Part shown: one piece after another, positions 345 to 32,672 of the stretch
How positions within the stretch are numbered: the first letter of the stretch is position 1
Layout of the letters: each line of letters begins with the position of its first letter
NCBI GenBank assembly: GCA_001823575.1
Contig: MHUW01000013.1
Coordinates: 1-35,052, forward strand
Length of the DNA stretch: 35,052 bases
From: Candidatus Yonathbacteria bacterium RIFCSPLOWO2_01_FULL_47_33b
GTDB lineage: Bacteria; Patescibacteriota; Minisyncoccia; Phycocordibacterales; UBA1550
Reading direction: 5' to 3'
Made by a program: the position numbers and the translations under genes
Notes under the pieces: generated by a model
Told to the model about the DNA's origin: nothing
What the model saw: only the letters and a program-made list of their open reading frames with translations
Databases searched by the model: none

Positions 345-2510
345 ATGGAACAACTGCCGCAAAGACTATCCGTTGAAGAACTACATGATTTGTCCGATGA
401 AAAGAAGCATACGCGGGGTGCTTTGAGCGACCTCAGTGCGGAGAAAATGCCACAGGAAATGAGTGAGGATCTTTCCGAAGAACCTCGTGGAATTTTGGAA
501 ACCTTGAAAGAGAAATCACAAGGTCTCATTGAGTCCTACGGCGGAATATCAAAGGTGAAAGAAGCTCTCCGTGAACGGCACTCATTTGATGTTCTCTCCG
601 CACATTTTGAAAAAGATGCGGTGCAGAATCTCAAAGAACACACGGAGGCGAAAGAAGTGTACGATACGCTTGCCATCAAGCAGATCAAAAGGAATGTTTC
701 TCTCGGCGGGTCTTCACCGGTCGCGCAAAACATTCTCAACAGATATCAAGAAGGCGCACAACACGAAGAAGAAGCGCTTAAAACTATCCAAGAAAACGAG
801 CCGATCCTCGCTCGCGCGCACGAGCTTCTCTCGTACCAAGAGGGGCTGTCCAAAGAGGGGCACATCTGCCCGCTTCCTTCTACCGTCGGCTACATCAAAA
901 GCATAGAAGAACGAATGATTACTGGCAAACCCGTGTTCCTCCACGGAGCGACCGGCACTGGGAAGACTTCACTTGCTCGCTATGCCACAAAGGAGTTGAC
1001 GGGCAAGGATGCTGAAATGGTGTACTGCTCACCACAGTTTCGCGAACAGCAGGTATGGTCCACGACGGGGCTTCGTGCGACCGAAGACGGCAAGGGTGTG
1101 GAGACGGTCGTCATCTACGGTCCGCTCGCTCGCGCAATGCGTGAGGGTAAAGCCATCATTTTTGACGAGTTCACGACATTGCCCAAAGAACAGATGGCGT
1201 TCATCAAGGGGGTGTTCGGGGTAAAGATTGGCGACAAGATTACTGTTCCCGGGAATGGCGAAATCGCCGTACAAAACGGGTTCCAGATGATATTCACCGC
1301 CAATCTGAAGTCCGAGAAAAATCAAGAACGAAGCGACCTCCCTCCAGAAATGGCGAGTGAGTTTGAGCAGAACAATATGGAGATTGGGTATGCAAGCACA
1401 GAGGAAATGTATGACACGATACTCGCGCGTCTCATCGACCGTAAAGGAAACCTCACGCTTTCATACGAGGATTTGCAAGACACGCTTCCCAAGTTTGTCT
1501 CAGCTATAAAAGAAGTTCAGATTGCATACGCAGGTATCTTGCCCGACGACGAAGCAAAAAAACTCGGCGTAATGGAAGCCAATGGAAGAGTGCAGGGACT
1601 TAAAAAGTTTGTAATGAGCCAGAGGTCCATCGAAGCGATCCTTGAAAGATGGAATGTTGAACAGACGAGAAATGCCGATGCAAACTTCAGAAACTTTCTC
1701 GACGATGCGCTCCAGACAGGCATCACCTTCAAAGAATATCCGGAAGCAGATCGCGAGCTCGTCGCAAAGATATTCGCCACAAAAGGATTTTTGAGGACCA
1801 AGAGTGAAAGCGACCTCGGGCTCAAGAGTGGTTCACTCAAAGGGCTCCACTCAACAGGGCAATACGAAGAGGTAAAAAAGCAGACGCTTTCTATAAAAGA
1901 TGTTGCCACGCTGGACCCGTTTCACACGAGAAAATCCAAAGAGCAAGAAGAGGCTGAGTCATTTGTTAAGGAAGAAATAGGAACAGAATCAAATCCTGAA
2001 GAACTCGAGTCCACCATCGCTCGCGTCCGTGAAGCAGGATTCCTCGACGCGTCATTTGAAGGTAAAGAAACTCATCGCCTCGCTATTGAAGCACTCCCCA
2101 AAGAAGAAGCAATCGAAGCATATCGAAAGAGTGGTGGTGAAACATATATATGGGCAGAGCTCGAAAAGAACATGCCCTACACAACACCAAAGGCAGAAAA
2201 GCTCGATGTGATACTCCTTGGCTTTGGTAAATCGGTCACAAGTGATGAAGCTCTTGCAGAAATGGAGAGACTTGGTGTTCGCCCCCTCACCTACGAGGAG
2301 CTTATTCAATACGGTATCGTAAACCCAGAAGCTCAGAAGAAAAACCCCCACGTTGCATTGGGAAGTAAACATTCCCTGGGCGGCGGTCCTCGCGCTCCGA
2401 TCCTCCGCGTCGGCGACGGCGGGCGCGGCCTGTGCGCCCTCCGTTGGGGCGGTGGCTGGGGCGGGGGGGTGCCGTTTCCCCGTTGTCCGCAAGTAGTGCT
2501 TTGGCTTTAG
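345..2510 (+). CDS. MoxR-like AAA+ ATPase with DGR-diversified C-terminal domain (DGR target 1)
   Basis: Walker A GATGTGKT, Walker B AIIFDEF, MIFTAN sensor-like motif. The C-terminal ~150 aa are homologous to the 29702-30352 product and end in VR1. A +1 G shifts the last ~15 codons; without it the gene would stop at 2496 with ...WGGGCRFPVVRK*. Confidence 0.88.
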   Translation: MEQLPQRLSVEELHDLSDEKKHTRGALSDLSAEKMPQEMSEDLSEEPRGILETLKEKSQGLIESYGGISKVKEALRERHSFDVLSAHFEKDAVQNLKEHTEAKEVYDTLAIKQIKRNVSLGGSSPVAQNILNRYQEGAQHEEEALKTIQENEPILARAHELLSYQEGLSKEGHICPLPSTVGYIKSIEERMITGKPVFLHGATGTGKTSLARYATKELTGKDAEMVYCSPQFREQQVWSTTGLRATEDGKGVETVVIYGPLARAMREGKAIIFDEFTTLPKEQMAFIKGVFGVKIGDKITVPGNGEIAVQNGFQMIFTANLKSEKNQERSDLPPEMASEFEQNNMEIGYASTEEMYDTILARLIDRKGNLTLSYEDLQDTLPKFVSAIKEVQIAYAGILPDDEAKKLGVMEANGRVQGLKKFVMSQRSIEAILERWNVEQTRNADANFRNFLDDALQTGITFKEYPEADRELVAKIFATKGFLRTKSESDLGLKSGSLKGLHSTGQYEEVKKQTLSIKDVATLDPFHTRKSKEQEEAESFVKEEIGTESNPEELESTIARVREAGFLDASFEGKETHRLAIEALPKEEAIEAYRKSGGETYIWAELEKNMPYTTPKAEKLDVILLGFGKSVTSDEALAEMERLGVRPLTYEELIQYGIVNPEAQKKNPHVALGSKHSLGGGPRAPILRVGDGGRGLCALRWGGGWGGGVPFPRCPQVVLWL
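2375..2492 (+). repeat. DGR variable region VR1
   Basis: Aligned by hand to TR 2862-2978. Mismatches fall only at TR adenines (24 of 26 changed: 20 to G, 2 to C, 2 to T) plus one inserted G. Confidence 0.96.
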
Positions 2511-2861: not shown

Positions 2862-2978
2862 CCTGGACGGCAATCCTCACGCTCCGATCCTCAACGTCAA
2901 CGACGACGAGCGCAACCTGAACGCCAACCATTGGGGCAATGACTGGGACGAGAGGTACCGTTTCCCCGTTGTCCGCAA
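2862..2978 (+). repeat. DGR template repeat (TR)
   Basis: Adenine-rich AAC/GAC/AAT codons; the non-A scaffold is identical to VR1; lies upstream of the RT gene; ends in the shared TTTCCCCGTTGTCCGCAA block (IMH-like). Confidence 0.96.
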
Positions 2979-2987
2979 CTTTATTTC

Positions 2988-3410
2988 TTACTCCCGCGCT
3001 TTTGCGCGGGAGTTTTCTTTTTCTGTTTGCGCAAGTATCTGGTTGTGCCAGCCACCGAGCATGCGCCCTACTTCGAAAAGCTTTTCAGAGAGCGCAATGA
3101 ACTTTTTTGCATCGAGTGCGTCGACTTTGTTTGCGACACGAAGGAGGAGTTTTACCGTGTCGAGTAGCTGAATTGCTTTTTGAATGTGAACGGTCTTGTG
3201 TTCCTTTTTTACAAAAAGTGCCGAGGATATATAGCACATGATTTCACACAAGAGAGAGTCTATTTTTGCACCGAGTGAGTAGCGGTGGATTTTTGGAAAG
3301 TGTAGAATGTAGGAATGCCACAAAGTATACGCAACTTCAATCTTGAGAATGAGGGGTGGGATGTCTGTGGGTATACGGGGGGGGGGTGGACATAAAGGAA
3401 AGTATACCAT
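2988..3410 (-). CDS. avd: Avd-like DGR accessory protein (four-helix bundle)
   Basis: HFPKIHRYSLGAKIDSLLCEIMCYISSALF...KAIQLLDTVKLLLRVANKVDALDAKKFIALSEKLFEVGRMLGGWHNQ matches the Avd/four-helix-bundle pattern; the start codon is uncertain. Confidence 0.82.
   Translation of the reverse strand: MVYFPLCPPPPRIPTDIPPLILKIEVAYTLWHSYILHFPKIHRYSLGAKIDSLLCEIMCYISSALFVKKEHKTVHIQKAIQLLDTVKLLLRVANKVDALDAKKFIALSEKLFEVGRMLGGWHNQILAQTEKENSRAKARE
2990..3013 (+). terminator. Strong hairpin immediately downstream of TR
   Basis: ACTCCCGCGC-TTTT-GCGCGGGAGT followed by TTTCTTTTT. Confidence 0.7.
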
Positions 3411-4320
3411 ACAGAATGTACCCAACGCCCGTTCTTTTGAAGAAATCATCTCATACGAAAATTTATTGCGCGCGTGGGAAGATTTTATAAAAGGAAAGCG
3501 TGGCAGGAGAGACGTGGATATGTTTGCTCGTACATTGTCAGATAACTTGTGGCAACTTCACTTTGATTTAAAGAATAGCACTTATGCGCATGGAGGGTAC
3601 CATGAGTACACTATTTGTGATCCAAAAAAACGTACGATACACAAGGCAAGTGTGAGAGACAGGGTGGTACATAGACTAGTCTACAATGCTCTCTATCGGT
3701 ATTTTGATAAGCGGTTCATTCATGACTCGCACTCATCGCGAAAAGGGAAGGGGACACACAGAGCGCGCGACAGGTTTCGGCTTTTTGCGCAGAAAGTTAG
3801 TAAAAATTATACAAAGCAATGTTTTGTCTTGAAATTTGATATACAGAAATGTTTTGCGAGTATTGACCAGACAACGCTTTTGGAAATTCTTAAAAAACAT
3901 ATTGCTGATGATGAGGTGTATGACATTGTTGCTATAATCATTGGGAGCTTTAAATGCGGGCTTCCGCTTGGGAACCTCACTTCCCAACTTTTTATCAATG
4001 TGTACCTCCACGAGCTTGATTGGTTTTGTAAACATACCATTCGCGCAAAATATTATTTGCGTTACGCTGACGATGTTGTTATTGTATCGGATGATGAAGA
4101 TGAGCTCGACGTTGCGTACAGAATAATCGCTGATTTTTTGTTAAGCAAACTTTATCTTACGACCCACAAAAAGAGTGTGGCTACCATTTACCAAGGGGTT
4201 GACGTGTTGGGCGTGATATTCTTCCCCCGATATGGTATTTTAAGGAGAAGGACGAGGGTGCGGATGAGGGTGCGAGAACAACATGGAAAATATCTTCAAA
4301 CAAGAAATGGCGCAGAATAG
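3343..4320 (+). CDS. DGR reverse transcriptase
   Basis: HKASVRDRVVHRLVYN, DSHSSRKGKGTHRA, LKFDIQKCFASID, GLPLGNLTSQLFINVYLHELD, YLRYADDVVIVSDD, GVDVLGVIFFPRYGILRRRT; the exact start is uncertain. Confidence 0.95.
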   Translation: MRMRGGMSVGIRGGGGHKGKYTIQNVPNARSFEEIISYENLLRAWEDFIKGKRGRRDVDMFARTLSDNLWQLHFDLKNSTYAHGGYHEYTICDPKKRTIHKASVRDRVVHRLVYNALYRYFDKRFIHDSHSSRKGKGTHRARDRFRLFAQKVSKNYTKQCFVLKFDIQKCFASIDQTTLLEILKKHIADDEVYDIVAIIIGSFKCGLPLGNLTSQLFINVYLHELDWFCKHTIRAKYYLRYADDVVIVSDDEDELDVAYRIIADFLLSKLYLTTHKKSVATIYQGVDVLGVIFFPRYGILRRRTRVRMRVREQHGKYLQTRNGAE

Positions 4321-6181
4321 CTCGAAGGACGGGGTTGTTCCGCGTGAGGGTAAAGACATCAGTACCGAGTATTTTAATACGCACCGGGACTTTTTTGAGA
4401 CTTATGCGCGTGGCGGGGTGAAGGTGGAGCCGGCTCCAGTAGGGCTTGACACCTTTGCGTTTAATCTGGAGAAAAACACGATTTATGTGAACGATATGTT
4501 TTACCGAGAAGGAAGAGGGTTTAGCGACGAGAAAACCGCTTTTGCAGTGTGTCACGAGGTAGAGCATTTTTTTGAAAAAAAGATGATGCTTACGGAGAAG
4601 GGAGGTGGCGAATACTTTTCAAAGTATTTGGAAAAAATTGGAAAGTCTCGCGCATATGGGCTTTTGGATAATTGTGTCGCTGATATTCGAGAAAACAGAT
4701 CGGTTGTGGAAAAGACTGGCAAGGAGTTTAGGAATACTGAAGAAAAAATGTACCGTGAGGATTTATTTCCGAGTGCCGACTTTCGGGATGCTCCGCTCCA
4801 TATACAATTTGCGCAGGCGATACTGCGTGAACGAAGACTACCCGATGAGCAATGCCTGGTGGCGGATGAGGTGCGCGCAAAACTCGATGCACTTGATGGT
4901 ATTGTAAATAAAAATAAAGTAAAACTTCTCGACGCAATGACGGGTACTAACGTGCCTATGTCGCTTCGGCTGAAACTCCTTGATCAATATGTCGTGCCGA
5001 TGATGGAGGAGCTTAAGAAGAAGGATCTGGAAAACGAAAAGGAGAAAAGTAAAGAGAGAGGGGAAAGTGGCGATAAGAAAGAGGGAGGCGAGGAACAGGC
5101 AGGTGCTCCGAAAGATGGCGAAGGAGAGCTTGACCCGAACGAGGTCTTCAAAGAAGCATATGAACGGGCGGAAAAAGGCACGCTCGGGTCGGTTCCTCAC
5201 GAAGCGGAGGAAGCGACATTTAAGGAGTGGCAGAAGGGAGAAAAAGAAAATAGTGTTGAAACACGCGATAAAGAATACGCGGAGTCTTTGGGTGTGAGTG
5301 AAAAAGCACTTGATGATTATCGCGCTATCAACAAGACGCTGCAGAATGTCATCAACCCCGAAACGAACCAGTCTGTCGTGGATGACTTGCGTGAACTGTT
5401 CAGGAGGATTATTGCCAAGAGAAAAAAGAAATGGATTGTTCCGAAATATCCGCTTGAGGAAGGGGATACTTTAGATGACCCTGTGGGCGCGTATGTGGAG
5501 GGGATGCGGGGGAATTTCAAACCGAAGGTTTGGGAGGAACAGGAGATCAAGGAAATTCGTGGAAATAAATGTGGCGAGGTGGAGATATCGTTTGTGTGCG
5601 ATGGCTCTGGAAGTATGAACGACGGAGGCGGATTGAAAAGGAAAGAACAGCAGAGAGCGATGGTGCTTGCGATGGAGGCGCTCAAGGATTTTAACGATAT
5701 GGTGGATGAGGAATCGGGGTCGCTTACTGAGCCCATTGATATAAAAACGGAGGTCTACAAGTTTCAGGGTGAGCAAAGTGACAGTGAACCTTTGAAACAA
5801 ATGGGGCGCGAGCTTTCCGAAAAAGACCGGATAACGGTGTGTGGCGAGCTCTCGAGTACGCCGGGGAGTACGACAGATTTTGTTCCGCTTGAAACTATCA
5901 ACATACAATTGCCCGATGAGTCTCTGGGCAAGATACGCGACGGGGAGTTGAAAAAGATTGTCATTGTGTTGACGGACGGGGAGAGTGATGATTCGCGGAG
6001 GGTTAAAGATACCATAGCATCGCTTCGTGAGAAAGGGGTCGTGGTGGTCGGCTTGGGGATTACGAGCGCGGGTGGGGCTGTCCTGGAAACATACGCCCCC
6101 AACGCTCTCGTCGTGGAGGATGCAAAAGATCTGCCAAGAATGCTCGGCGAGCTTTTGGAGGATCATTTGAAGGAGTTGTAA
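4283..6181 (+). CDS. VWA-domain protein with N-terminal metallopeptidase-like HEVEH motif
   Basis: VWA MIDAS ISFVCDGSGSMND and IVIVLTDGESDD; AVCHEVEHFFEKK (HExxH); low-complexity charged linker between them. Confidence 0.85.
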   Translation: MENIFKQEMAQNSSKDGVVPREGKDISTEYFNTHRDFFETYARGGVKVEPAPVGLDTFAFNLEKNTIYVNDMFYREGRGFSDEKTAFAVCHEVEHFFEKKMMLTEKGGGEYFSKYLEKIGKSRAYGLLDNCVADIRENRSVVEKTGKEFRNTEEKMYREDLFPSADFRDAPLHIQFAQAILRERRLPDEQCLVADEVRAKLDALDGIVNKNKVKLLDAMTGTNVPMSLRLKLLDQYVVPMMEELKKKDLENEKEKSKERGESGDKKEGGEEQAGAPKDGEGELDPNEVFKEAYERAEKGTLGSVPHEAEEATFKEWQKGEKENSVETRDKEYAESLGVSEKALDDYRAINKTLQNVINPETNQSVVDDLRELFRRIIAKRKKKWIVPKYPLEEGDTLDDPVGAYVEGMRGNFKPKVWEEQEIKEIRGNKCGEVEISFVCDGSGSMNDGGGLKRKEQQRAMVLAMEALKDFNDMVDEESGSLTEPIDIKTEVYKFQGEQSDSEPLKQMGRELSEKDRITVCGELSSTPGSTTDFVPLETINIQLPDESLGKIRDGELKKIVIVLTDGESDDSRRVKDTIASLREKGVVVVGLGITSAGGAVLETYAPNALVVEDAKDLPRMLGELLEDHLKEL

Positions 6182-27596: not shown

Positions 27597-28784
27597 CTAT
27601 TTTGTGTCCTTAATCGTGAGGGCGTAAGGGAGTGCCGTGAGCATAATGATACCGAGAACGAGGAAGAGGTAGCGATAGTCGACAAGCGAGAGCACGATTG
27701 AACCGAGCAGGGGTCCGATGATATAGGCACTGGTGCGCATCGTGCGCATAAAAGTGACGAGATGAATGTCTCCTGGCCCAATTTTTTTGTAAAAATAACT
27801 CTCCGTCATGACCTCCACGGCGCTTGCCCCCGTGCGGGTAAGAAAGAGTGCGACCGCCCAAACGAGGACACTTGAGGTGGTAATCCAAGAAAGTCCCGCC
27901 GTGGTAACGGCGGTCAAGAGGAACCCCGCGGTCAAAATTTCTTTTTCACCAAGTTTTGCATCAGCAACCTTGCCAAGACCAACTTCAAAAAGAATGAATG
28001 GCACAAGCATGACCGGGGTGATGATACTCAAAATATCGTTCATCGAGATGCCCATATGTTTGTTGAGATATATGGGTGTGTAAATGACCATCCATGCATA
28101 GAAAAACGCGAGCAGGAAATGCATAAAGATAATCGAGTGAAGATCGTGACTCCCGGTGACCGTGCGGAACGTATCCCTGAATGCGGGCACATGGTAAACA
28201 GGGTCGGGGTGGTTTCTAAAGTTTTTTGCAACCACAAAAAATCCAAGCGCCATAAATGCGGCTGCGGCGAGGTATACCCTCCAAAAGTCGTGGTCGGTGA
28301 GCATGAGGCCCGCCACAAACGGTGCAACCGCGATTGCTACATTGATGACGGTCATAAAGACGCCACGGATACCTCCCGTCTTGCTGTCTTCGGAGAATGA
28401 TTCCACAAAGCTATCGAGGTTGAGAAAAATAATGTTGGTGAGAACTTGATGCAAAACAAACAAGGGAACCACAAGAAGTGGTGACGCCACAAATGCGCCC
28501 GAGCAAATAGCAAGACCGGTAAGTACGGCAACCTCAAGCCCCATCGTGGTGAGGGTGGCGCGGTAGTTGCCCACGCGACGCAAGAAGCGAGGGAAAAGGA
28601 ATGTGGTGATTGCCGTAAAGACCGCCGCAACAGAAAAGATGAGGCCCACCAGGTGCTCAGTAGGGAGAAACTGAACGATGAATGACGACTCGATATAGAG
28701 GGGGAGTGCGTAGTGGAACGAATATAAAAAGCTCGAGAGGTACACAAGGAGAAACAGGGTTTTTCGGGATAATGGTTTGGGCAT
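27597..28784 (-). CDS. MFS transporter
   Basis: ~395 aa with about 12 hydrophobic segments; LIFSVAAVFTAITTFLFPRFLRRVGNYRA. Confidence 0.88.
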   Translation of the reverse strand: MPKPLSRKTLFLLVYLSSFLYSFHYALPLYIESSFIVQFLPTEHLVGLIFSVAAVFTAITTFLFPRFLRRVGNYRATLTTMGLEVAVLTGLAICSGAFVASPLLVVPLFVLHQVLTNIIFLNLDSFVESFSEDSKTGGIRGVFMTVINVAIAVAPFVAGLMLTDHDFWRVYLAAAAFMALGFFVVAKNFRNHPDPVYHVPAFRDTFRTVTGSHDLHSIIFMHFLLAFFYAWMVIYTPIYLNKHMGISMNDILSIITPVMLVPFILFEVGLGKVADAKLGEKEILTAGFLLTAVTTAGLSWITTSSVLVWAVALFLTRTGASAVEVMTESYFYKKIGPGDIHLVTFMRTMRTSAYIIGPLLGSIVLSLVDYRYLFLVLGIIMLTALPYALTIKDTK

Positions 28785-28858: not shown

Positions 28859-28906
28859 CAGGTATCTACTTATAGCATACTATAGTACGCTATAAGTAGA
28901 TACCTG
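28859..28906. repeat. Near-perfect 48-bp palindrome, copy A
   Basis: CAGGTATCTACTTATAGCATACTATAGTACGCTATAAGTAGATACCTG, one mismatched pair. Confidence 0.93.
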
Positions 28907-29546: not shown

Positions 29547-29592
29547 TACTATCTACTTATAGCATACTATAGTACTGTATAAGTAGATAGTA
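29547..29592. repeat. Near-perfect 46-bp palindrome, copy B
   Basis: TACTATCTACTTATAGCATACTATAGTACTGTATAAGTAGATAGTA; shares 26 contiguous nt with copy A. Confidence 0.93.
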
Positions 29593-29637: not shown

Positions 29638-29668
29638 TTGACGCGAGACTCGGGGGGGGGGCTATACT
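29638..29668 (+). promoter_or_regulatory. Predicted promoter with G10 tract in the spacer
   Basis: TTGACG - 19 nt including GGGGGGGGGG - TATACT, 34 nt upstream of ATG 29702. Confidence 0.65.
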
Positions 29669-29701: not shown

Positions 29702-30352
29702 ATGGAATCAGCACCGCAACATCATCGAGAGGGAATTCAGGAACTTTTGGATAAAGCGTATGACGAGGGTCACCGCGATAACGTCGCGATGAAAGAAGGT
29801 GAAGTAGTAGAAGAAAGAGTCGGGCATATGGATGACAAAGAAATGCATGGCAAGTCTTCACAGGAAAGAACTTTGAGTTTTCTTCGTGATAGGGGCTACC
29901 TCGACACCTCGTTTGAAGGAAAGGAAATCCACCACCTTGTCGTTGAATCACTCTCTAAAAAAGAAGCGTTTGATCGCTACTGCAGTAGCGGCAGGACATC
30001 TGTATGGGATGGGTTGGAAGAGAATATGCCCTACATGACGCCGGAAGGGACAACACTTGACGTGATGATTATGAAGTTCAACAAAGTCATTGGAAGCGAT
30101 GAGGCAATCACCGAAATGGCAACTCTTGGTGTACGCCCTCTCACTTACGAGGAACTCATCCAGTACGGTATTGCATACCCAACACACCAAGAAAAAGACG
30201 CTTTTAACGGGCTGGGAAGCAAACACACCTTTGAGAACGGCAATGTGCTTACCCCGCGTCTCGTCTTGAGCGGTGGCTATCGTGTGCTGTGTGCCAATTC
30301 TTGGGACAGCGATTGGAGCGAATGGTGTCGTTTTCCTGTTGTTCGCAAGTAG
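29702..30352 (+). CDS. DGR-target-like protein (paralog of the MoxR target C-terminus, carrying VR2)
   Basis: LRDRGYLDTSFEGKEIHHLVVESLSKKEAFDRY...LGVRPLTYEELIQYGIAYP...GLGSKHTF...WDSDWSEWCRFPVVRK* parallels the 345-2510 C-terminus. Confidence 0.9.
   Translation: MESAPQHHREGIQELLDKAYDEGHRDNVAMKEGEVVEERVGHMDDKEMHGKSSQERTLSFLRDRGYLDTSFEGKEIHHLVVESLSKKEAFDRYCSSGRTSVWDGLEENMPYMTPEGTTLDVMIMKFNKVIGSDEAITEMATLGVRPLTYEELIQYGIAYPTHQEKDAFNGLGSKHTFENGNVLTPRLVLSGGYRVLCANSWDSDWSEWCRFPVVRK
30234..30350 (+). repeat. Diverged VR-like region (VR2)
   Basis: Codon-by-codon alignable with TR/VR1 but with many non-adenine differences. Confidence 0.75.
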
Positions 30353-30363
30353 TGCTGAAAACA

Positions 30364-30404
30364 AAAAACTCCGCCGTTTTATGTAAACGGCGGAGTTTTT
30401 TGTT
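30364..30404 (+). terminator. Hairpin terminator after the VR2 gene
   Basis: AAAAAACTCCGCCGTTT...AAACGGCGGAGTTTTTTG. Confidence 0.75.
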
Positions 30405-30520: not shown

Positions 30521-32557
30521 CTACACTCCCAAAATTACCGGAATCACGATAGGACGCTTTGCGGTCTCCTGGAAGAGGAGGCGCGCTACGGCGTCGGTGA
30601 CGTGGTCCTTCACATAGTCAAAGTCGATTTGCTTTGACCCGCCGGTCATATCTTCAACCGTTTTCTTGGTGAGGAAGCGTGCTTGGCGGAGAAGATCCTG
30701 TGATTCACGAAGGTAAACAAATCCGCGTGAAATAACGTCAGGGGATTTGGTTACTTTGCCGGTCGCGAGGTCGAGCGTGGTGATGATAACAAAGATACCG
30801 TCTTGTGAAAGCATCTGGCGGTCACGGAGAACTACTTCTTGCATGTCACCGACCGAGAATCCGTCCACGAGTACGAGGCCATGAGGTGCCGTTTCTTTGA
30901 GGGATACAATCTTTTTGCCTTCCTCTTGAATTTCAATAATCATACCGTTGTCAGGGATGATGATGTTTTCATCAGGGAGACCTGCTTCACGAGCAATGTC
31001 TGCATGGACTCGGAGCATGTAGTGGTATCCGTGTACGGGCATAAAGAAACGTGATGCGAGTTTCTTGTGAATCCACAAGGACTCGTCGTGATGTGCATGG
31101 CCCGAAGAATGCACTTTGGCATTTTCGTAATGAATAAGGTGTGCACCTTGGCGTGAGAGGTTGTCCTTGAGCTTTTGAACGCTGCGTTCGTTGCCCGGCA
31201 CTACTGATGATGAAAGGAGAACGGTGTCACGCTTGTTAATTTTGAGGTACTTGTGTGCCTTGTTGGCTGCGCGCATAAGTGATGCAAATTCGTCGCCTTG
31301 CGCACCGGTCACCAGGAGAATGATGCGGTCAGGCGGGTACTTTTCCATATCCTCGATAGGGATAAAGGTCTCCATACTTGCCTTGAGGAGTCCTGCTTCG
31401 CGCGCAATCTCGACATTGTTCTTCATACTGCGACCGTCGAGGATGATTTTTTTCCCGAGAACCTCAGCGACATCGATAATCTTTACGAGACGCTCAAGAA
31501 GCGACGCAAAGGTTGCAACGATGATGCGGCCTTGGGTTGTACGAATAATTTCCTCGATGTTGGCAAGCACGGTGCGCTCAGGGAATGAGTAACCAGGACG
31601 CTCGACATTGGTCGAGTCGGCCATAAGGAGAAGTGTGTTGCTTCCCTTGGAAATCTTTTCGAACTCGTCCTCTTCTTCCATCGTAGGAACGCCGTTCACA
31701 TGGTCGAGCTTGAGGTCGCCGGTGTGCACAATGTTGCCGTACGGTGTTTCAATGATGATACCCATTGCATCAGGAATCGTATGGGTTACCGCAAAAAAGC
31801 GAACTTTGAAATCACCCATCGTTACACGGTCATTTTTTTCAATGATACGCATATCGAGTGGCGGTAAGTGTGAAAATTCTTCCTGACGCTTTTGAATCAT
31901 GAGTGCGGTGAGGTTACGGGTGTAGAGTGGTGGGTTGCCAATCTTGTCCATAAGGTAGGGGATACCGCCCGTGTGGTCGAGATGTCCATGGGTAATCATA
32001 ACCGCCTTGACCTTACCCTTACGGTCTTCGAGATATTTAGTGTTCGCGAGGATATAGTCGACACCAGGGGTGTTTTCCTCTTTGAACTGCAATCCTGCGT
32101 CGATTACCACAATCGAGTCTTTGAATTCGATCATGGTCATATTGCGGCCGATTTCCTCGACACCACCAAGTGCGATGATGCGGATGTCGCCGTCCTTGAG
32201 AGGAGGGATGATTACATTTTCCTGATCCCTTGATGGGTAGGGTGCCATCATACGGCGCGAGTCTGCCTTTTCGCGACCTGTCGAGTGCTTAACACGAGTT
32301 GAAGTGCTCGGTGCTGCTCCTCCAGGTCCACGCATGGGAGGGCGCGATCCTTGTGGGCGAGGTAGTACGCCGGTCCCTGGCTTGCGGGGTCCCTGGCTGC
32401 CTTGAGCGCCTCCTTGGTTGCCATAATTTGCGTTGCGGTTTGCCGAGCGGTTTACCGCGCTCCGGGGACCTCGGGCGTTACTGTCTTTACGAGGGAAGCG
32501 GCGTGCGCTGTATCCCTCTTTTTTTACACCCTCATCCTTTTTTGGTTCTTCATTCAT
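30521..32557 (-). CDS. rnj: Ribonuclease J (metallo-beta-lactamase/beta-CASP)
   Basis: VMITHGHLDHTGGIPYLMDKIG, VHTGDLKLDH, HSSGHAHHDE; disordered basic N-terminus; start set at MNEEPKK. Confidence 0.95.
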   Translation of the reverse strand: MNEEPKKDEGVKKEGYSARRFPRKDSNARGPRSAVNRSANRNANYGNQGGAQGSQGPRKPGTGVLPRPQGSRPPMRGPGGAAPSTSTRVKHSTGREKADSRRMMAPYPSRDQENVIIPPLKDGDIRIIALGGVEEIGRNMTMIEFKDSIVVIDAGLQFKEENTPGVDYILANTKYLEDRKGKVKAVMITHGHLDHTGGIPYLMDKIGNPPLYTRNLTALMIQKRQEEFSHLPPLDMRIIEKNDRVTMGDFKVRFFAVTHTIPDAMGIIIETPYGNIVHTGDLKLDHVNGVPTMEEEDEFEKISKGSNTLLLMADSTNVERPGYSFPERTVLANIEEIIRTTQGRIIVATFASLLERLVKIIDVAEVLGKKIILDGRSMKNNVEIAREAGLLKASMETFIPIEDMEKYPPDRIILLVTGAQGDEFASLMRAANKAHKYLKINKRDTVLLSSSVVPGNERSVQKLKDNLSRQGAHLIHYENAKVHSSGHAHHDESLWIHKKLASRFFMPVHGYHYMLRVHADIAREAGLPDENIIIPDNGMIIEIQEEGKKIVSLKETAPHGLVLVDGFSVGDMQEVVLRDRQMLSQDGIFVIITTLDLATGKVTKSPDVISRGFVYLRESQDLLRQARFLTKKTVEDMTGGSKQIDFDYVKDHVTDAVARLLFQETAKRPIVIPVILGV

Positions 32558-32672
32558 TCTGTTTTTTTTAATTATTATTTTTCTATTAACTTCATGAGAA
32601 CTTATCTCAAAAATAATTACGAGGCACACGCATTTGGCTCATCTTTATTTTTGAAACAAGTTCGGCTTTATT

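Follow-up and report, generated by a model that had tools for sequence, protein, structure and literature searches.

Does the small gene at 29702..30352 (+ strand) still receive new sequence from a diversity-generating retroelement (DGR), or has it left the diversification cycle? The window, i.e. the complete stretch of 35,052 nucleotides that was analysed, is contig C13 of an assembly (G000) of 718,629 bases in 22 contigs that is 92% complete. The gene, referred to here as the orphan target gene, is an intact ORF of 216 aa with an ATG start that consists of an N-terminal motif (HHREGIQ..LDKAYDEGH), a core domain shared with another gene of the window, and a C-terminal VR-like region of 39 codons, VR2 (30233..30349, +), an eroded homologue of a TR. 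Its site is bordered to the left by an MFS-type transporter (27597..28784, - strand) and to the right by an RNase J-like protein (30521..32629, - strand), both family names having been assigned by reading and not by a family search. A PaaX/Cas2-like gene (PF20803; 28973-29521, - strand) also lies in this interval and is flanked by two copies (28863-28902 and 29550-29590) of the palindromic repeat TATCTACTTATAGCATACTATAGTAC.

The left end of the window carries a complete DGR that consists of a target, a TR (TR1), an Avd-type protein and an RT and is followed by a vWA protein. The target is a MoxR-type AAA+ protein (345..2510, +; AAA_5, E 3e-12) with the same C-terminal domain as the orphan protein and with its own variable region, VR1 (2376..2493, +). 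TR1 is located in frame at 2863..2979 (+), the Avd-type accessory protein at 2988..3449 (-; PF22296 bAvd, 45.2 bits, over the cut-off), the reverse transcriptase at 3343..4320 (+, approximate start; PF00078, E 4.8e-20) and the adjoining vWA-domain protein at 4283..6181 (+; PF00092). VR1 differs from TR1 at 24 of 26 A sites and, if an extra G is skipped, at none of 88 non-A sites; its adenines are replaced mostly by G. The extra G sits in a G run and shifts the frame so that the conserved FPVVRK end is replaced, and it represents either a real inactive variant or an assembly error.

With 49% identity (E 1.9e-45), residues 51-212 of the orphan protein correspond to the last 162 aa of the MoxR-type target (1995-2480). 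This bears out the homology that had been proposed from the sequence and makes the orphan a homologue of a variable protein with a C-terminal VR. No Pfam match was obtained for the orphan protein, in agreement with the suggested lack of the AAA+ part that is recognised as AAA_5 in the product of 345-2510. The two variable regions are in a very different state. In a codon alignment VR2 differs from TR1 at 16 of 26 A sites but also at 30 of 88 non-A sites, among them 18 of 38 non-A third positions, and the silent changes ttt/ttc, cct/ccc and gtt/gtc are present. The view that VR2 is no recent copy of the TR is therefore confirmed by 30 of 88 non-A differences versus 0 of 88 in VR1 and in a further copy on contig C1 (see below), and the A-specific transfer from TR1 into VR2 that would have spoken against it was looked for and not seen. 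Where VR2 and TR1 encode the same residue, 7 of 16 codons are silently different; in the flanking core of the orphan and the MoxR target this applies to 36 of 69 same-residue codons. In the live VRs the number of silently different codons is zero. As the silent divergence of VR2 equals that of the flanking domain, no TR1 cDNA has landed there since the two paralogues split. Judged by its silent sites, VR2 is as old as its flanks.

Other templates of the genome fit no better. A second DGR was found with its halves on contigs C15 (positions 1-2096) and C10 (3-527), the RT being split by the contig break; it comprises a target of 201 aa, a TR (TR2), an Avd-type protein and an RT that is 46-49% identical to RT1. 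A run of Ns is located exactly inside the VR of its target, as is to be expected if this VR is hypervariable in the population. TR2 does not match VR2, and a search of the 718 kb assembled genome with the VR2 DNA returned only VR1, the VR on C1, the terminator palindrome of the orphan gene itself and trivial matches, i.e. no cognate TR. VR2 thus corresponds to no TR of the assembled genome in the way of an active target, whose VR equals its TR except at adenines. The non-A differences rule out a rewriting of VR2 in trans by TR1 or TR2, and no third TR was found in the assembled contigs; the suggestion that VR2 might be the target of another TR did not hold up in this search. The related idea of a remote target of TR1 has to be divided: such a target seems to exist, but on contig C1, and it is not the orphan gene. 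Contig C1 starts inside a near-identical copy of the 3' end of the MoxR target (positions 1-209, cut by the contig end) that is followed by different downstream sequence, the next gene being type II secretion/pilus-like. Its VR differs from TR1 at 15 of 26 A sites and at none of 88 non-A sites and contains one inserted codon. This copy is likely a trans target of TR1, the alternative being a strain variant of the TR1 target that was joined to other sequence.

The sequence that follows the variable regions points in the same direction. As originally noted, AAGTAGTGCT (30347..30356, + strand, in the orphan gene) follows both VR1 and VR2 and is absent after the TR. It is the remnant of a longer 3' block, as the live targets share approximately 39 nt from the GTAG after the VR. 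VR2 keeps the first 8 nucleotides of this block and then 11 of 31 (shuffled sequences average 7.9), whereas 23-27 of these 31 are kept in the C1 copy and in two congeners, G002 and G011. Over the whole block, identity to the MoxR target amounts to 34/39 in G002, 31/39 in C1 and 31/39 in G011 (here beyond an inserted palindrome), compared with 19/39 after VR2 and 19/39, 16/39 and 9/39 in the homologues of the congeners G003, G013 and G004, respectively; most of the block of the live targets of the genus is thus missing after VR2. In BPP-1, homing needs sequence just downstream of the VR (PMC3240598), and by analogy the 3' block may have a similar homing role here. A BPP-1-like hairpin was not found in the live block, as no stable DNA fold is predicted after VR1 or in G002 (z ~0.6). 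The strong hairpin of 20 pairs after VR2 (30360..30404, +) lies between the convergent orphan and RNase J genes and resembles a terminator; a hairpin is present at this place in the syntenic orthologues, too.

If the orphan gene is not rewritten today, was it ever a target? Residue changes between VR2 and TR1 affect 15 of 19 codons that contain A but only 5 of 19 other codons (p=0.003), and the same pattern relative to TR1 is found in the G003 gene (15/19 versus 4/19) and the G013 gene (17/19 versus 7/19). Because the differences concentrate in codons with A in TR1, a past diversification of the orphan gene by a DGR is probable, although part of the bias may stem from selection on the exposed face used for binding. 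Ordinary selection of this kind could also produce the bias alone, and this leads to a first alternative: the orphan would belong to an older, fixed C-type-lectin-like family that was never a DGR target, and a DGR would later have captured the domain in the MoxR fusion and derived its TR from a copy of the VR. Standalone members at a conserved site in genomes without RT (see below) would be well compatible with this order of events. Two observations speak against it: AAGTAGTGCT is retained after VR2, as in live targets, and the VRs of the orthologues from RT-less genomes have most of their differences at codons with A in the TR. We consider this alternative unlikely.

The distribution of the gene in the genus bears on a second alternative, in which a third TR/RT, absent from the 92%-complete assembly, still rewrites VR2 as a remote target. 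Homologues were detected in six of 15 congeners searched, and an RT (protein search and PF00078) in only G000, G011 and G002 of 16 genomes. In G003, G013 and G004 the gene adjoins RNase J on the side of the MFS transporter and is oriented as in the window, and these orthologues share the N-terminal motif HHREGIQ..L.KAYDEGH with the orphan gene; G013 and G004 have other small genes in the interval. These three genomes yielded no RT, and nothing in them matched the MoxR paralogue in its AAA+ part. With the VR DNA of G013 and G003 as query, no TR was detected in G013, G003, G004 or G001. A homologue is thus kept without cognate RT or TR, and as G013 and G004 are near-complete (100% and 99%), the gene persists without RT. 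The assumption of a third TR/RT is favoured by the remote targets that seem to exist here (on C1) and do exist elsewhere (PMC10907252, PMC4891356), as well as by the strong differences of the VR region between species: among the syntenic genes VR identity is 13-33%, compared with 52-58% for the core. A third system may lie in the unassembled part of G000, which is much less likely for G013 and G004. The near-complete congeners that keep the gene without RT, the G013 and G003 VRs without TR in their own genomes and the lost 3' block render this explanation decidedly improbable. The third and weakest alternative, in which the diversified MoxR-type protein would have the orphan as its fixed partner or as a decoy, fits the shared domain and the co-occurrence in G000 but hardly the retention of the gene in G003, G013 and G004, which have neither an RT nor a MoxR AAA+ match, and is very improbable. 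A viral origin was also considered and rejected, as no relative was found in the collection viral_contigs.

The history of the site is less clear-cut. The border genes are adjacent, without the orphan, in G005, G006 (RNase J 93% identical), G008, G009, G010, G012, G014 and G015, and also in G002. Three changes are needed to place the presence of the gene on the RNase J tree, which would fit a single gain followed by losses, or several gains. A tree of the shared core (119 columns) has no starred branch, and the shared derived letters at TR-A sites comprise too few sites to show one common retirement. The core of the VR2 gene is nearest to that of the G011 MoxR target (69%). G002 has an orphan elsewhere in its genome that is less eroded (15 of 88 non-A differences from TR1); the TR of the DGR of G002 itself is unrelated, as far as can be told from reading the sequence.

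Together these data favour the interpretation that the orphan is a retired DGR target that now serves as a fixed C-type-lectin-like binding protein, expression of which is possibly switched by a poly-G tract; we would put the probability of this reading at roughly two in three. Retirement had been among the possibilities of the original prediction and is now supported by the silent divergence, the RT-less orthologues at the same site and the loss of the 3' block. The orphan gene shares its domain with a MoxR-fused target that is still rewritten by TR1, and it was probably once diversified itself. Mutagenic homing into the gene has meanwhile ceased: silent sites have diverged as far as the flanks, the 3' block is mostly lost and the assembly contains no cognate TR. 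As an intact 216-aa gene it persists between RNase J and the MFS transporter in several species, three of them without detectable RT. The likely function is ligand binding through a single, fixed C-type-lectin-like surface. An AlphaFold2 model of the orphan protein (six sequences; mean pLDDT 73.7) has pLDDT values of mostly 74-92 in the shared domain, lower around residues 171-180. The PDB matches listed for it are overwhelmingly C-type lectin folds at modest Z scores of 4.7-6.5 (below Z 8), and Foldseek alone gave no significant match. As far as the model can be trusted, such matches fit DGR targets in general.

The putative switch is found upstream of the gene, where a promoter-like element (29638..29668, +) was recognised by eye: TTGACG and TATACT are separated by a 19-nt spacer of 8 nt, a G10 tract (29652-29661) and a C. 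A consensus promoter scan allows spacers of 16-18 nt only and does not list this element. In G003 the order is TTGACA, 9 nt, G8 and TACAAT (spacer 17), G013 has the same with G10 (spacer 19), and in G004 TTGACG is closely followed by nine Ns where the tract would lie. Thus, with hexamers assigned by eye, a homopolymer lies between -35 and -10 in G000 (G10), G003 (G8) and G013 (G10), which suggests that slippage of the tract could render expression of the orphan phase-variable. A G9-G10 tract is also present at the 5' end of all five DGR RT genes examined, two from G000 and one each from G011, G002 and G042 (window 3377-3386; L012 602-611, - strand; L048 8679-8687; L053 7296-7305; L060 6187-6196). 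At 3377-3386 the tract falls into the overlap between the 5' end of the RT and that of the Avd ORF on the opposite strand. It is G10 here and G9 in G011, and a change in length could put either ORF out of frame. The idea that poly-G tracts mark DGR genes exclusively was rejected: G000 has 11 G tracts of at least 8, several of them in other promoters, and this count is close to that expected from composition (0.6 per 35 kb in shuffled sequence). The tracts stand out by their length, with five of at least 10, and by the conserved promoter position. At a series of further loci (L111-L128, from G000, G013, G003 and G011) poly-G precedes a -10-like TANACT/TANAAT or ATAAAGG ahead of several secreted or receptor-like genes, and poly-G promoters might possibly form a genus-wide phase-variable class.

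The fate of DGR-diversified genes after homing has stopped is little known. The genus offers a graded series, from a live cis and a probable trans target through the less eroded orphan of G002 and the strongly eroded orphans that RT-less genomes have at one site to the empty site, so that the fate of a 'chosen' variant becomes readable from sequence. A tentative extension, which we consider less likely than not, is that retired targets form a stable lineage in Parcubacteria in which the binding surface is frozen and expression is phase-variable through the poly-G spacer, the DGR RT genes having poly-G at their 5' ends as well. One receptor family would in this case be controlled in two ways, by diversification of its sequence and by stochastic on/off switching. 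If the poly-G promoters switch, two separate routes to receptor diversity would exist in genomes of ~0.7 Mb.

DGR remnants as such are already known; new are the syntenic orphan lineage in RT-less Parcubacteria and the G8-G10 promoter tract in three species. Phase-variable promoters with homopolymeric spacers occur in Neisseria and Campylobacter. The tract described here is likewise an intergenic homopolymeric G tract (compare PMC8355987) and is positioned between -35 and -10; in contrast to the Neisseria and Campylobacter promoters, the length differences seen in it are between species, and its switching is putative. Thiohalocapsa PB-PSB1 has degenerate and remote DGR loci with MoxR/vWA-associated targets (PMC10907252); ternary systems are described in PMC7159879. 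MoxR- or vWA-associated targets, degenerate loci and trans targets that match the TR at all non-A sites (here C1) are common to both, whereas VR2 matches no TR at non-A sites and the MoxR protein of the window itself carries the variable domain. Treponema denticola isolates without RT and TR retain remnant DGR target genes (PMC4891356), a situation that resembles the present one in that target genes are kept after the loss of RT and TR; the present orphan differs by its separate syntenic location, by the heavy erosion of its VR and by the presence of a live paralogue and DGR in the same genome. The cyanobacterial CLec paralogue all3226 shows remnant TR-VR homology without a proximal RT, and its authors suggest that the diversification parts are removed once a good variant has been found (PMC7517822). 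Like all3226 the orphan is a dispersed paralogue of a variable protein, but it belongs to another phylum, four species carry it at one and the same site, and its divergence at silent sites has been measured.
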